From positions 1-64,000 of the forward strand of contig NZ_BJYJ01000005.1 in NCBI RefSeq assembly GCF_007991455.1: DNA of 64,000 nt, given 5' to 3'. Of the stretch, positions 48,520-61,537 are shown in pieces. A program made the translations under genes and the position numbers. Below the pieces are notes generated by a model, which made no database searches, had not been told where the DNA came from, and saw only the letters and a list, made by a program, of their open reading frames with translations. The DNA is from Chryseobacterium hagamense (GTDB lineage Bacteria > Bacteroidota > Bacteroidia > Flavobacteriales > Weeksellaceae). Within the stretch, counting starts at the first letter, position 1. Each line of letters starts with the position of its first letter.

Positions 48520-49557
48520 ATGATCAAGAAATTTATCATGATGGGCTTCGTATGCCTTTTATCTACAGCAGCAAATGCACAGAGAAAACCGGTTCTGAAC
48601 CTTCAGCCGAAAGAAGATACCGGCGTAAGCCCGATCGTAAAAGAAAAAGTAGATGATTATGCAAAAAAAATCGATGTCATTATCCAGGAAGAGAAAAAAA
48701 TGATGGAGGCGGAACTCAAGGAGCTTCAGGCGAAAAACCTGGATAAAACAGAATTTGATAAACAAAAGGCGTTGGTAGCTGACCGTTATTCTGAAAAGAT
48801 AGATCAGCGGATTGAAGCGCTGGGATTCGATATGGATGCCGTGATCCAGAAACAGGTCCGCTTTTCCCTTCTGAATTCAGATGTAACCTCCAATGAGGAG
48901 CTGAAGGAGAAACTTCTGAAAAAATTCAGGCCTACAAAAGATCTTTCTCCCTATATTTCTTACGGAATCATGAACCTTACGAATGACAGGCCGGACAATG
49001 CCCTGGATCATAATCTGCGCTATGCCGGAAACTTTGAATTTGGTTTTAAATTCAATTACCAGTTCGGCAGAACAAGCCCATGGGGATTGATCTCCGGAAT
49101 CGGTTTTTCGTGGCGGACACTGAGCATTGACAACAATATGTTTGTTGCAAAAGATTCCAATTCCAATGTATACCTGGAAAATTATGATAAAGGTTTGAGC
49201 AAAAGCAAGCTGAGAACCGGCTATATTATGGTTCCGCTGGGAGTGCAATATAATTTTTCAAAGCTGAAAAATGCCGGGATGGATGTTCAGTATCTGGATT
49301 ATTCCAAAGGCTTCAGAGTAGGAGCAAATGTCTACGGAGGGGTAAAAATGTCGACCAACAACATCATCAAAGGTGAAGGAGTCAGCAACCGGGAGCGCGG
49401 CGATTATCAGGTGAGCCCATTCATTTACGGAGGACAGTTCACTGTTTCTTATAACGATTTCAGCATTTTTGTAAAGAAAGATTTCGGAAATTTCTTTAAA
49501 AACACAACTTTTGAAAACGATAAAGCCTTGATCTTCGGAGTAGCGCTTTGGTGGTAA
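48520..49557 (+). CDS. Outer-membrane beta-barrel protein
   Basis: A 345-residue exported protein (signal peptide ends near AANAQ). Residues 35-125 are helical and charged, with coiled-coil character (KIDVIIQEEKKMMEAELKEL). From about residue 145 come alternating strands with Gly/Tyr-rich turns typical of porT-like barrels (ISGIGFSWRTL, GYIMVPLGVQYNF, GANVYGGVKMS), ending ALIFGVALWW. It is the third gene of the sigma operon and likely its target. Confidence 0.8.
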   Translation: MIKKFIMMGFVCLLSTAANAQRKPVLNLQPKEDTGVSPIVKEKVDDYAKKIDVIIQEEKKMMEAELKELQAKNLDKTEFDKQKALVADRYSEKIDQRIEALGFDMDAVIQKQVRFSLLNSDVTSNEELKEKLLKKFRPTKDLSPYISYGIMNLTNDRPDNALDHNLRYAGNFEFGFKFNYQFGRTSPWGLISGIGFSWRTLSIDNNMFVAKDSNSNVYLENYDKGLSKSKLRTGYIMVPLGVQYNFSKLKNAGMDVQYLDYSKGFRVGANVYGGVKMSTNNIIKGEGVSNRERGDYQVSPFIYGGQFTVSYNDFSIFVKKDFGNFFKNTTFENDKALIFGVALWW

Positions 49558-56796: not shown

Positions 56797-57010
56797 ATAT
56801 CTAAAATTGCTCCTGCTTTCGGTGCTGTAATTAAACTTCACCTCTAAGTGTTGTTTTTTTTTAGGTTCATTTTTATTAAATCGCTAGGGATATTTACAAT
56901 TCAAAGCATAGGATTTCAGCCAGTTAAATTGATTTTTTTAGTACGGAAATCAAAAAGTGATGAAAAATAAATTATCTTTATTCAACTGTACTAAAAAAAT
57001 TAGAAACGAT

Positions 57011-59848
57011 ATGAGAAAGTTTTACTCAGGTCTTTTATTGCTGATGGTCGCCTTTACATTTGGCCAGATCAGCTATACAATTGCACCGAACCCTTTTAAT
57101 GAAACGAATGCGGTTACCTTAACCGTTCCCGGAAATCAGATTGATGAAGCTGCCTGGGGTGTTTCAAACAACGCCATCTACATCTGGTCGTGGTCTCTGG
57201 ATACCAATTACCAGAACAGCCAGGATTGCCCTACCAACGGAAGCTGGAACAGTTCCAATGAACTGAATAGGCTTAATTATAACGCTGCAACCGATACGTA
57301 TTCCTTATCATTTACCCCAACTGCTTTTTACGGAAGAACAGGAATCGGGAGACTGGGATTTTTATTAAAAGATAAAACGGGAGCCCACCAGACATCTGAC
57401 AACTATGTGAATGTAGGAGTTTTAAACCTGACCCTAACCAATCCTGCGGCCAACAGCCTGACGGCGGTGAATACGGGAAATTCAATCAATATTACGGCAA
57501 CAACGAATGTAAACGCTACTTTCCAGCTGAAAGCTAACGGAACAGTAGTGAATTCAACATCTACGCCTGCTACTTCGTATGCCTACAGTTACACGGTAAC
57601 CCAGGATGCCAATATGGAACTGATTGCGACGGATGCCAATTCAACAGTCAAAAATTCAACATTTACCTTACAGGTTCCGCGAAATGTGGTTTCGCAGGCT
57701 ATTCCGGGCTGGATCAGACAGGGAATCAACTACAGCCCTACTGATAACACCAAAGTCGGGCTGGCTTTATATGCCCCGTTTAAAAACTTCGTTCATGTGA
57801 TCGGAAGTTTCAATAACTGGACGGTGAATGACGCTTATTTAATGAAGCGTGACACTGCCAATCCGGATCTGTACTGGATTGAGCTGAGCGGGCTTACACC
57901 ACAGCAACTCTATACGTTCCAGTACAGAACCAATGATCTGAGAAAGGTGGCGGATCCTTATTCCCCGCAAATCCTTTCATCTTATGACGATCAGTACATT
58001 GCTGCATCTACCTATCCTAATCTGCCGGCATTTCCTGCCGGTCAGGGCTTTGAAGTATCCATGTTTAAAACCGGACAGACACCATACAACTGGCAGATAA
58101 CCAACTTCCAGAGACCGGCGAAAGAAAATCTGGTGGTCTATGAATTGTTGCTGCGGGATTTTACGCAGGAAAAAAACTGGCAGTCGCTGATCAATAAGAT
58201 CGTATATCTAAAAGGATTGAACATCAATGCCATTGAACTGATGCCGATCATGGAGTTTGAAGGAAACCTGTCCTGGGGATATAATACTTCTTTCCATTAT
58301 GCACTGGACAAAGCCTATGGAACACCTGAAAAATTCAAGGAGTTTGTAGACCTTTGCCACCAGAACGGGATCGCCGTTATTCTGGATGTTGCTTTTAATC
58401 ACGCTACAGGACGTTCTCCGCTGGCCAGGCTATGGAATATCGATCCGGATGGAGACGGTTACGGAGATATTGCAGCCAACAACCCTTACTTTAACCAGGT
58501 TCCTAAACATTCCTATAACGTATTCAATGATTTTAACCATACCAGTGCTTCAACGAAATATTACGTTGAGAGGTGTCTTCAGCAATGGTTGACTGAGTAC
58601 CGCATCGATGGGTTCCGTTGGGATTTAACGAAAGGGTTTACCCAAAGCTGTTCTGAAAATGATGAATCCTGTACCAACGCCTATCAGCAGGACCGGGTGG
58701 ATATTTTAAAATATTATGCCGACCGGCAGTGGGCGCTTGATCCGAATTCTTATATGATCTTCGAACATCTGGGAACGGATGCAGAAGAGCAGCAATGGGC
58801 CAACTACAGGGTTGCCGAAGGAAAAGGCGTCATGCTGTGGAATAACCAGAACGGTTCTTATAACCAGAATACCATGGGGTATAAGGACAATAGCAATTAT
58901 GACAGGATGAACCATGCGCTTCACGGTTTTACCAATATGTCCGCTGTCGGTTACGGGGAAAGCCACGATGAGGAAAGGCTGATGTTCAAGAATCTGGCGT
59001 ATGGAGCGATAAACGGAAGTTATGATGTGAAAAATTTAAATACGGCCTTGGAACGGATGAAAACTTTCGGGGCAACCTTCTTTACGATCCCGGGGCCGAA
59101 AATGATCTGGCAGTTTGGGGAATTGGGGTATGAATTCAGCATCAACAGATGTCAGGACGGAACCATTAACAACGGATGCCGGACAGATCAGAAGCCGGTT
59201 GCATTTACGTTGAACTATGATACGAATACCAACAGGAAAGCAGTATATGATACCTGGGCAAAAATTATCAATTTCAGGAACCAGTATCCGGTTTTCAGAT
59301 CAAAAACCTATTCCATAGAATCCAATAATCTGGCAAATGATCCGAATGGACTGATTACCCGGATCTATGTGTATGATAATCTTTTAACCTTGGGAATGAA
59401 AAATGTAGTGGTACTGGCAAATTATTCCACAGCAGTTCAGAATGTCGTACCATACTTTCCTTATGCCGGGCAGTGGCAGAACCTGATGGATAATTCCGTG
59501 ACCAATATAACTTCCACAACGGCGCCGATCAGTCTTCAGCCGGGTGAGTTCAGGATTTTCGGAAACTATGCTGGAAGTTTATCCACATCGGACGTAAATG
59601 CGGAAAATAAACTTTCCCTGCAGATTGCGGATAACCCGGTGAAAAACGGAATGGCTCAGCTAATTTACCATAAAGTAAAAAACGGGGAGATTCAGATCTA
59701 TGATTTAAGCGGCAGAAGGATGGATGTATTCAGGCTTAGCGGGGAAAATGGTATTTATGAATTAAAGGCAAATTACCCGGCAGGAACGTATCTCGTTCAT
59801 TTAAAATCAGATACGGGAGTTGCTGTCCAGAAAATGATTGTGAAATAG
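57011..59848 (+). CDS. GH13 alpha-amylase family enzyme with T9SS sorting domain
   Basis: A 945-residue secreted glycoside hydrolase. The frame extends to 56957, but the ATG at 57011 starts the signal peptide (MRKFYSGLLLLMVAFTFGQ). An N-terminal beta region and a CBM48-like domain (about 225-345, VHVIGSFNNWTVND) precede the GH13 barrel. Catalytic residues are visible: Asp538 in DGFRWDLTKG, Glu585 in MIFEHLG, and His652-Asp653 in GESHDEERL; region I is DVAFNHATG. The last 75 residues are a T9SS type A domain. It likely attacks starch or glycogen at the cell surface. Confidence 0.93.
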   Translation: MRKFYSGLLLLMVAFTFGQISYTIAPNPFNETNAVTLTVPGNQIDEAAWGVSNNAIYIWSWSLDTNYQNSQDCPTNGSWNSSNELNRLNYNAATDTYSLSFTPTAFYGRTGIGRLGFLLKDKTGAHQTSDNYVNVGVLNLTLTNPAANSLTAVNTGNSINITATTNVNATFQLKANGTVVNSTSTPATSYAYSYTVTQDANMELIATDANSTVKNSTFTLQVPRNVVSQAIPGWIRQGINYSPTDNTKVGLALYAPFKNFVHVIGSFNNWTVNDAYLMKRDTANPDLYWIELSGLTPQQLYTFQYRTNDLRKVADPYSPQILSSYDDQYIAASTYPNLPAFPAGQGFEVSMFKTGQTPYNWQITNFQRPAKENLVVYELLLRDFTQEKNWQSLINKIVYLKGLNINAIELMPIMEFEGNLSWGYNTSFHYALDKAYGTPEKFKEFVDLCHQNGIAVILDVAFNHATGRSPLARLWNIDPDGDGYGDIAANNPYFNQVPKHSYNVFNDFNHTSASTKYYVERCLQQWLTEYRIDGFRWDLTKGFTQSCSENDESCTNAYQQDRVDILKYYADRQWALDPNSYMIFEHLGTDAEEQQWANYRVAEGKGVMLWNNQNGSYNQNTMGYKDNSNYDRMNHALHGFTNMSAVGYGESHDEERLMFKNLAYGAINGSYDVKNLNTALERMKTFGATFFTIPGPKMIWQFGELGYEFSINRCQDGTINNGCRTDQKPVAFTLNYDTNTNRKAVYDTWAKIINFRNQYPVFRSKTYSIESNNLANDPNGLITRIYVYDNLLTLGMKNVVVLANYSTAVQNVVPYFPYAGQWQNLMDNSVTNITSTTAPISLQPGEFRIFGNYAGSLSTSDVNAENKLSLQIADNPVKNGMAQLIYHKVKNGEIQIYDLSGRRMDVFRLSGENGIYELKANYPAGTYLVHLKSDTGVAVQKMIVK

Positions 59849-59850
59849 CC

Positions 59851-60159
59851 TGTGGATAAGTCTGTAGATTAAACAAAAAGGAGGTCATAACCATGACCTC
59901 CTTTTTGTTTGTCCATACTTTATCCCCGGTAAAAACACGGGTTATCCATGCAATATTAACGGGTTTTCCATAGGTTTTCCACATCTTTTTCCGCAACGGA
60001 ATTCAGGCTTATCCATACCTTATGAATATCTTATTTACTTGTTATCCATATTTTATTCACAACGGTAAAAATTTTTATTCAGATTATTTTCATGGTTACT
60101 GATATCCAATTCACAGCTTATTCATAGGAAATTCACAGGTTATCCACAACTTATTCACA
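59851..60159. other. Cluster of phased DnaA boxes, candidate oriC
   Basis: Ten DnaA-box-like 9-mers lie in 310 bp. Two are perfect TTATCCACA: 59851-59859 (minus strand) and 60140-60148. One- or two-mismatch copies start at 59942, 59964, 59975, 60009, 60042, 60053, 60118 and 60151, all on the plus strand. Three pairs are exactly 11 bp apart (59964/59975, 60042/60053, 60140/60151) and other steps are 22, 33, 34 and 65, so nearly all boxes face one side of the helix. An AT-rich stretch (60062-60100) lies among them. This is the pattern of a replication origin; no dnaA gene is in the window. Confidence 0.75.
59875..59906 (+). terminator. Terminator after the amylase gene
   Basis: 14-bp perfect arms (AAAAAGGAGGTCAT and its complement) around AACC, followed by T. 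It lies inside the DnaA-box region. Confidence 0.9.
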
Positions 60160-60451: not shown

Positions 60452-61537
60452 ATGGCTAAATCATTAATTCCGAAATTAGAAGCTATAAAACAGAGATATA
60501 ATGAGGTGGCCGACCTTATTATACAGCCTGATGTTATTTCAGACCAGAAAAGATATTCTTCTCTGAACAAAGAATATAGCGATTTGGGAAAAATTGTAAG
60601 AGTTTACGATCAATATAAAGGCGCTTTGGACACGATTGAAGAGTCTGACGAAATCATTGCTGACGGATCAGACAAAGAATTTGTGGAACTCGCTAAAATC
60701 GAAAAAAACGAAGCCCTGGAAAAAATTCCCGGACTGGAAGATGAATTAAAAGTATTGCTGATCCCGAAAGATCCTGCGGACGATAAAAACGTTATCGTGG
60801 AACTTCGTGCCGGGACCGGTGGTGATGAAGCGGCGATTTTTGTAGAAGATATTTACCGGATGTATTCCATGTACTTCAAGACGAAAGGCTGGAGACATGA
60901 AGTAACGGATTCCAACGAAGCGGCGAAAGGTTACAAGGAACTGATCATGAAAGTAGAAGGCGAAGGCGTTTACGGAATCATGAAATTCGAATCGGGGGTA
61001 CACCGGGTACAGCGTGTTCCGGAAACCGAATCCCAGGGAAGGGTCCATACTTCTGCTATAACGGTAGCGGTTCTTCCGGAAGCTGAAGAAGTGGATTTTG
61101 AACTGAATCCTGCAGATATCGAAATGCAGACTTCCAGATCGGGAGGAGCCGGAGGACAAAACGTAAATAAGGTAGAAACCAAAGTGCAGCTGACACACAA
61201 ACCTTCAGGATTGGTCGTGGTTTGCCAGCAGGCCCGTTCCCAGTTGGCCAACCGTGAACTGGCCATGGAAATGCTGAGGACCAAACTCTACGATATCGAA
61301 CTGCAGAAAGTACAGGGTGATATCGCGGCCCAGCGTAAATCGATGGTTTCCACCGGAGACCGTTCTGCAAAAATCAAAACCTACAACTATCCGCAGGGAA
61401 GAGTCACGGATCACAGGATCAACAAATCCATGTACAATCTGGATGCTTACATGAACGGTGACATTTCCGAAATGATTGATGCCGTCATCATGGCGGAAAA
61501 CGCTGAGAAAATGAAAGGCGAAGAAGAGAATTTATAA
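60452..61537 (+). CDS. prfA: Peptide chain release factor 1
   Basis: A 361-residue class I release factor that ends translation at UAA and UAG. The codon-recognition motif PxT is PET in [15 protein letters not shown], and the GGQ that triggers peptidyl-tRNA hydrolysis is Gly234-Gly235-Gln236 in [16 protein letters not shown]2 would have SPF in place of PxT. Length is as usual (about 360). It is the first gene after the candidate origin. Confidence 0.97.

Follow-up and report, generated by a model that had tools for sequence, protein, structure and literature searches.

The window analysed here is a 64-kb stretch of Chryseobacterium hagamense DNA in which one element of ∼309 bp lies between the gene of an alpha-amylase-type protein and prfA, which begins only ∼290 bp further on. 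Both neighbours had been named in the preliminary description and were confirmed by their Pfam domains (Table 1). The element consists of a perfect inverted DnaA box on the left, a perfect and a near-perfect box on the right, and ∼20 mostly weak sites between them, separated by 2-bp gaps. A terminator-like hairpin stands inside its left end. A hairpin-like sequence with different letters occupies the same spot in most copies of the array in other genomes, as judged by eye, and a similar sequence is also found 3' of the amylase gene in relatives without the array, so that on sequence grounds the hairpin probably belongs to the gene. The window gave no Rfam match at gathering scores, and a known RNA element was rejected. 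No dnaA gene is present, as had been described; it lies on another contig than the array, and the DnaA of this genome is canonical, with Pfam ATPase and helix-turn-helix domains and the residues GKDHSTVMYAC in domain IV.

Table 1. Features of the array locus and its neighbours (positions in the window)
Feature	Position	Strand	Description
Alpha-amylase-type protein with C-terminal sorting tail	56957..59848	+	Pfam Alpha-amylase, CBM_48 and Por_Secre_tail (the last match below its cut-off)
Left inverted perfect DnaA box	59851..59859	-	Just past the amylase stop codon; 9/9 bases invariant in 13/13 copies
Terminator-like hairpin, probably of the amylase gene	59880..59901	+	GGAGGTCAT..ATGACCTCC, then a T-run; between left box and tandem array
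Tandem array	59909..60159	+	23 slots, each a 9-bp DnaA-like site and a 2-bp gap; one +1 slip, one return
Right anchor	60140..60159	+	Perfect box TTATCCACA, 2-bp gap, TTATTCACA
prfA (peptide chain release factor 1)	60452..61537	+	Pfam PCRF and RF-1; downstream neighbour of the array

In total, we detected 15 DnaA-box-like 9-mers with at most two mismatches to TTATCCACA in the ∼310 bp from 59851 to 60159, 13 of them on the + strand and two on the - strand. Seven have at most one mismatch and two are perfect. The preliminary description had listed ten boxes, stepping by 22, 11, 34, 33, 11, 65, 22 and 11 bp; all of them were found in the sequence, with starts at 59851 on the - strand and at 59942, 59964, 59975, 60009, 60042, 60053, 60118, 60140 and 60151 on the + strand. 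The DNA of the array is 66 percent AT. Dinucleotide shuffling produced a mean of 1.9 boxes, and none of the 5000 shuffles reached 15 or matched the counts of seven and two at the stricter thresholds. Across the 64 kb, 311-bp windows hold a mean of 1.0 box (sd 1.2), the highest count elsewhere being six, where the adjoining amylase gene ends. The 13 boxes of the + strand all fall in two neighbouring registers of 11, which none of 200,000 random placements equalled. The shuffle and register tests thus rule out chance or AT-richness as the source of the array, in agreement with the earlier view that its order goes beyond base composition.

The boxes of the + strand share a single 11-bp grid, the register of which slips by +1 at 59987 and is restored by 60118. 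Thirteen of its 23 slots have at most two mismatches and the other ten have more, with only one perfect box within the grid. The resultant length is 0.96 at a pitch of 11.0 bp and 0.23 at the 10.5 bp of B-DNA. The sites therefore creep round the helix, and the notion that they lie on one face of it, put forward in the preliminary description, is true locally but fails for the array as a whole. Pairs of mismatch-free boxes 11 bp apart occur three times in the genome (4.67 Mb in 102 contigs), always in the array; when two mismatches are allowed there are 95 pairs, eight of them in the array, against 34 in a reversed control.

We searched for the array in 173 genomes of the genus and scored it as present where the match exceeded 200 bp. 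Of 30 genomes with E values up to 0.001, 13 pass this threshold, the genome of C. hagamense included, and the other 17 match over 25–57 bp; the resulting 13 of 173 is a lower bound, with four candidates scored per genome. In a family-level search of 246 genomes from 33 genera, long matches were found in this genus only, in four genomes. Among 80 amylase loci kept from named records, 74 have a full right flank, and box counts in the 340 bp 3' of the gene reached 12 each in C. mucoviscidosis VT16-26 and Chryseobacterium sp. JUb7 and ranged from 0 to 6 in the other 72. The array had no match in phage or plasmid collections, and a phage or plasmid source is not supported.

The geometry of the array is retained among its carriers. 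Twelve of the 13 copies are 306–309 bp long; the remaining one, in G074, has 298 bp, which is 11 bp below the 309-bp copies and keeps the register. The resultant length on the 11-bp grid is 0.83–0.97 across all 13 copies. Mean conservation is 0.83 in site columns versus 0.67 in gap columns (one-sided Mann–Whitney p 6e-8, columns taken as independent). At the right anchor 17 of the 18 site bases are invariant and the remaining one is shared by 12 of the 13 copies; conservation of the 35 bp just past it is 0.46, with gaps counted as loss. The constant length, the register and the higher conservation of sites than of gaps seem to reflect selection acting on the spacing. An ordered array of DnaA sites, as first described, fits the evidence.

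A pgk tree of 59 genomes places the 13 carriers within a group of 16 with a support of 0.93; the tree is of one gene, midpoint-rooted, with G041 dropped as its start motif was not found. Loss of the boxes in close relatives had been named in the preliminary description as evidence against its reading of the array as a candidate origin. The closest relatives keep the array, but G009, G034 and G045, inside the carrier group, are without it, and G009 and G034 have one and three weak boxes, respectively, 3' of the amylase gene. These absences mean either that cells can do without the array or that the tree lacks precision.

Twelve carriers, all but G038, were searched for the amylase gene. Eleven have it, each with the array 3' of the amylase stop codon; the gene upstream of the array in G114 did not register as an amylase. 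A further 21 relatives have the amylase and no array, with 0–4 boxes in the same 330 bp and none with at most one mismatch. In five of these (G008, G009, G028, G031 and G034) the amylase and a terminator-like hairpin are followed directly by prfA. The occurrence of the amylase in genomes without the array implies either that one lineage acquired the array when the amylase was already present or that the array was lost elsewhere. On the other side, the next gene 3' of the array is prfA in C. hagamense, whereas G013 has a gene for a TonB-dependent receptor, preceded by a SAM riboswitch, and G014 yet another gene. Open reading frames of at least 80 aa separate the array from prfA in G013, G014, G026, G003, G074 and G042. 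A SAM riboswitch was seen at two loci: between the array and the TonB-dependent receptor gene of G013 (L065:11673-11777) and 3' of the amylase in G007 (L140:14824-14928).

The persistence of the element beside varying downstream genes argues against a promoter role. A control element of prfA was rejected, as the left box lies 3.9–7.6 kb before prfA in G014, G003, G026 and G013. DnaA-dependent control of local transcription could also concern the 3' end of the amylase gene, for the left box sits between the amylase stop codon and the terminator-like hairpin, and DnaA acts as a transcription factor at some sites of Bacillus subtilis (PMC4447404). Such control, of the amylase end or of the next gene, nevertheless appears unlikely: there is no fixed downstream target, since the next gene differs between C. 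hagamense, G013 and G014, and the upstream gene of G114 is the exception noted above.

The preliminary description had read the array as a candidate chromosomal origin, with GC skew among the tests that it set. We determined cumulative skew in contiguous stretches of three complete relatives, of which G013 carries the array and G020 and G007 do not. The minima are located at 448,608 in G013 (540 kb contiguous), 3,392,410 in G020 (320 kb) and 2,470,923 in G007 (400 kb). The distance to the pgk start is 11.1, 11.5 and 13.3 kb, respectively, which puts the minima outside the rpiB–pgk gap itself. The array of G013, at 641.4 kb, is 193 kb away from the minimum at 448.6 kb and hence not at it. Cumulative G-C rises by ∼2000 between the two points, and G is in excess of C over the 20 kb to each side of the array. 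Of 20 stretches sampled over the G013 chromosome, most of those between 0.63 and 2.44 Mb have a positive skew and most of those from ∼2.64 Mb onwards, round to 0.24 Mb, a negative one, with some single 20-kb stretches running against the trend. In the same genome dnaA is found at 3.30 Mb.

A second box cluster, of the kind that the preliminary description had taken to count against an origin at the array, exists in front of pgk. No box cluster outranks the rpiB–pgk gap in the stretches of G020 and G007; in the 540 kb of G013 it comes second to the array, lies at 437 kb, 204 kb from the array, and holds 14 boxes per 400 bp versus 15 in the array. Boxes are frequent before pgk in all 28 genomes scored, seven array carriers among them: the 650 bp before the gene contain 8–15 sites (mean 11.7) and the 650 bp inside it 1–6 (mean 3.8), some of the former falling within the start of rpiB. 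These 28 come from 30 pgk loci, G008 having been dropped for want of the motif and G038 for its short locus; a further 30 loci were not included. The rpiB–pgk gap is thus a candidate oriC of Chryseobacterium. In C. hagamense the genes at this gap carry the Pfam domains PGK and LacAB_rpiB, and the gap with the start of rpiB (L110:734-1500; contig C4, ∼165.5–166.25 kb) contains 13–14 DnaA-like boxes and is likely the oriC of this genome. Its placing comes from the homology of the gap and not from skew, for which the profile of this assembly of 102 contigs is that of the window only. An oriC prediction for Elizabethkingia is given by coordinates, with no flanking genes named in the portion of the source at hand (PMC8994065).

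Ten genomes were searched for rRNA genes, three of which (G002, G065 and G107, with one, two and one genes) are uninformative. In all seven informative genomes (G013, G020, G007, G028, G032, G025 and G068) the rRNA genes point away from the bracket that holds pgk. The prfA region is inside the bracket in G013, G028 and G025 and outside in G020, G007 and G032, that is, outside in half of the six genomes placed. The array is 146–229 kb from pgk, on either side of it, in all six genomes with both on one contig; in the remaining seven of the 13 carriers the pair is on different contigs. Where prfA and pgk share a contig (16 genomes), they are 179–263 kb apart in 15 and 1.99 Mb apart in G002, and prfA too occurs on either side of pgk, a pattern that inversions centred on the origin would produce. 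Most likely, the chromosomal origin is ∼200,000 bases from the array (about 150–230 kb).

An origin at the array itself is consequently extremely unlikely. Its box density is that of an oriC, outranking the cluster before pgk in G013, its 2-bp spacing is the one described inside the oriC of Escherichia coli (PMC6070618), and the rRNA genes of G013, the sole array carrier among the informative genomes, allow both places. However, the skew minimum of G013 is near the pgk cluster and cumulative G-C is already rising before the array is reached, the boxes before pgk are kept in the seven carriers scored, the rRNA bracket takes in pgk in all seven informative genomes but leaves out prfA in three array-free relatives of the six placed, and the long match is missing from 160 of the 173 genomes, so that the array is not genus-wide. 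Origin finding by box density alone could pick the wrong place, as the array outscores the likely origin in G013. A second origin, conditional or dormant, would account for the strong end boxes, the array of weak sites and the AT-rich DNA, but it would sit where G013 has no skew minimum, and we regard it as very unlikely.

Judging from its sequence and position, the array is probably a DnaA-binding locus near oriC but distinct from it that titrates DnaA or lowers DnaA-ATP; here we infer DnaA binding, filament formation and an effect on initiation. DnaA would bind the strong end boxes and, with DnaA-ATP abundant, would spread over the weak sites at 2-bp gaps in a cooperative filament, much as it does on the weak-site arrays within E. 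coli oriC. A second copy of the locus would arise shortly after initiation, so that it would then remove DnaA-ATP or help to convert it, discouraging a second initiation. A passing remark in the preliminary description, that DnaA also binds such clusters at titration sites such as datA, fits the evidence.

Precedents have been described both for such filling and for such restraint. The weak sites of E. coli oriC, spaced by 2 bp, receive DnaA from strong boxes and fill cooperatively, and six of the eight prefer DnaA-ATP (PMC6070618); cooperative binding of Thermotoga maritima DnaA is best on boxes of the same direction 2 bp apart (PMC10316083). The E. coli datA locus restrains initiation and promotes DnaA-ATP hydrolysis, and the loss of all six box clusters of B. 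subtilis leads to early initiation, with no significant role in initiation control seen for the clusters singly (PMC5295017). A 2025 study reports DnaA titration on the chromosome of E. coli, where the density of boxes is high near oriC (PMC12371093). The cluster precedents from E. coli and B. subtilis, together with the oriC-like 2-bp grammar, favour a DnaA sink or a locus lowering DnaA-ATP.

The array corresponds to none of these systems in full. Like the B. subtilis DnaA-box clusters (DBCs), termed oriC-proximal, it is a group of boxes outside oriC (PMC5295017); the array itself is one element of ∼309 bp with a fixed 11-bp grid and mostly weak sites. It resembles datA in being a non-coding box locus away from oriC, datA lowering DnaA-ATP after initiation, but datA measures ∼1 kb, has five strong boxes and needs IHF (PMC5295017), in contrast to the weak sites and 2-bp gaps of the array. 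With the weak-site arrays of E. coli oriC it shares weak 9-mers at 2-bp gaps beside strong boxes; there the weak sites form two groups of four within oriC (PMC6070618), whereas the array has ∼20 in one direction outside it. Among the matches listed in the licensed literature, none reports a DnaA-box locus outside oriC for Chryseobacterium or Bacteroidota. If DnaA does fill the array, it would represent a titration-type replication brake in Bacteroidota with an anatomy for which we found no counterpart in that literature.

Two further roles have to be weighed for a box array apart from the origin. One is that of a DARS-like site, which would recharge DnaA with ATP and promote initiation. DARS carry few boxes, and an origin-proximal place combined with a long array of one direction would fit sequestration better. 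DARS are also DnaA-box loci outside oriC (PMC5295017); even so, we think a role of this type quite unlikely.

The other is that the phased array serves a different DNA-binding protein, for partition, nucleoid or chromosome-arm functions, with a site that resembles the DnaA box by coincidence. Iterons of 11 bp are also found in partition centromeres, such as parC of plasmid R1. We nonetheless give this little credence, considering the exact and nearly invariant DnaA box at both ends, the like boxes that fill the origin candidate before pgk, and the lack of matches in the phage and plasmid collections.

A separate box cluster, here called cluster A, was scored as present in 27 of the 124 genomes that gave hits to it, by matches of at least 177 bp, a lower bound with four candidates scored per genome; G076 has a cluster A-like group (L020) outside the long matches. 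The 27 genomes fall within a group of 33 on the pgk tree, with a support of 0.74, and do not overlap with the 13 array carriers, though either list may miss copies. Cluster A contains four to eight perfect boxes in 520 bp; in its members L004, L005, L020, L024 and L028 the boxes are at about 1300–1660, and a DinB-family gene adjoins them in L004, L005 and L028. Its distance to pgk is 660–750 kb in seven of the eight genomes compared, the eighth, G179, giving 3.1 Mb in contig coordinates. Like the array, it is a box cluster apart from the origin candidate and largely of one lineage; unlike the array, it has boxes in both directions and mostly off the 11-bp grid, and is farther from pgk.

We tentatively propose, as a possibility that is less probable than the general reading of a DnaA-binding locus, that the 23-slot array is the cooperative weak-site half of an origin moved outside oriC, where it would serve as a threshold sink for a DnaA-ATP filament, and that Chryseobacterium lineages use different loci of this sort (the array at ∼200 kb, cluster A at ∼700 kb), with the loci that control initiation being exchanged over time around an origin that keeps its place. 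This would be a new architecture for a replication-control locus. If DnaA fills the array, the two loci in separate lineages of one genus would allow a test of whether such brakes are interchangeable.

Other arrangements of DnaA boxes came to light in these searches. A 30-bp dyad, TTATCCACA-N12-TGTGGATAA, is identical upstream of a parA-like gene at all four loci examined: on contig C22 of C. hagamense (49300-49329; L227:1801-1830), at 1506 in L272 and L273, and at 1508 in L274. L227 contains parA and parB domains, and many other short matches in the cluster A search may be the same dyad. A DnaA-box dyad before parAB might tie the partition genes to DnaA. Three perfect boxes in tandem with an 11-bp pitch occur in L003, L016, L021, L025 and L026 (∼1490–1530), in genomes that also have cluster A; at L003 and L016, the two loci examined for open reading frames, they lie just 5' of a cysteine-synthase-like (PALP) gene. 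In C. hagamense, three perfect boxes 21 bp apart on contig C20 (48697-48747; L226:2198-2248) overlap the end of an HxlR-family regulator gene.
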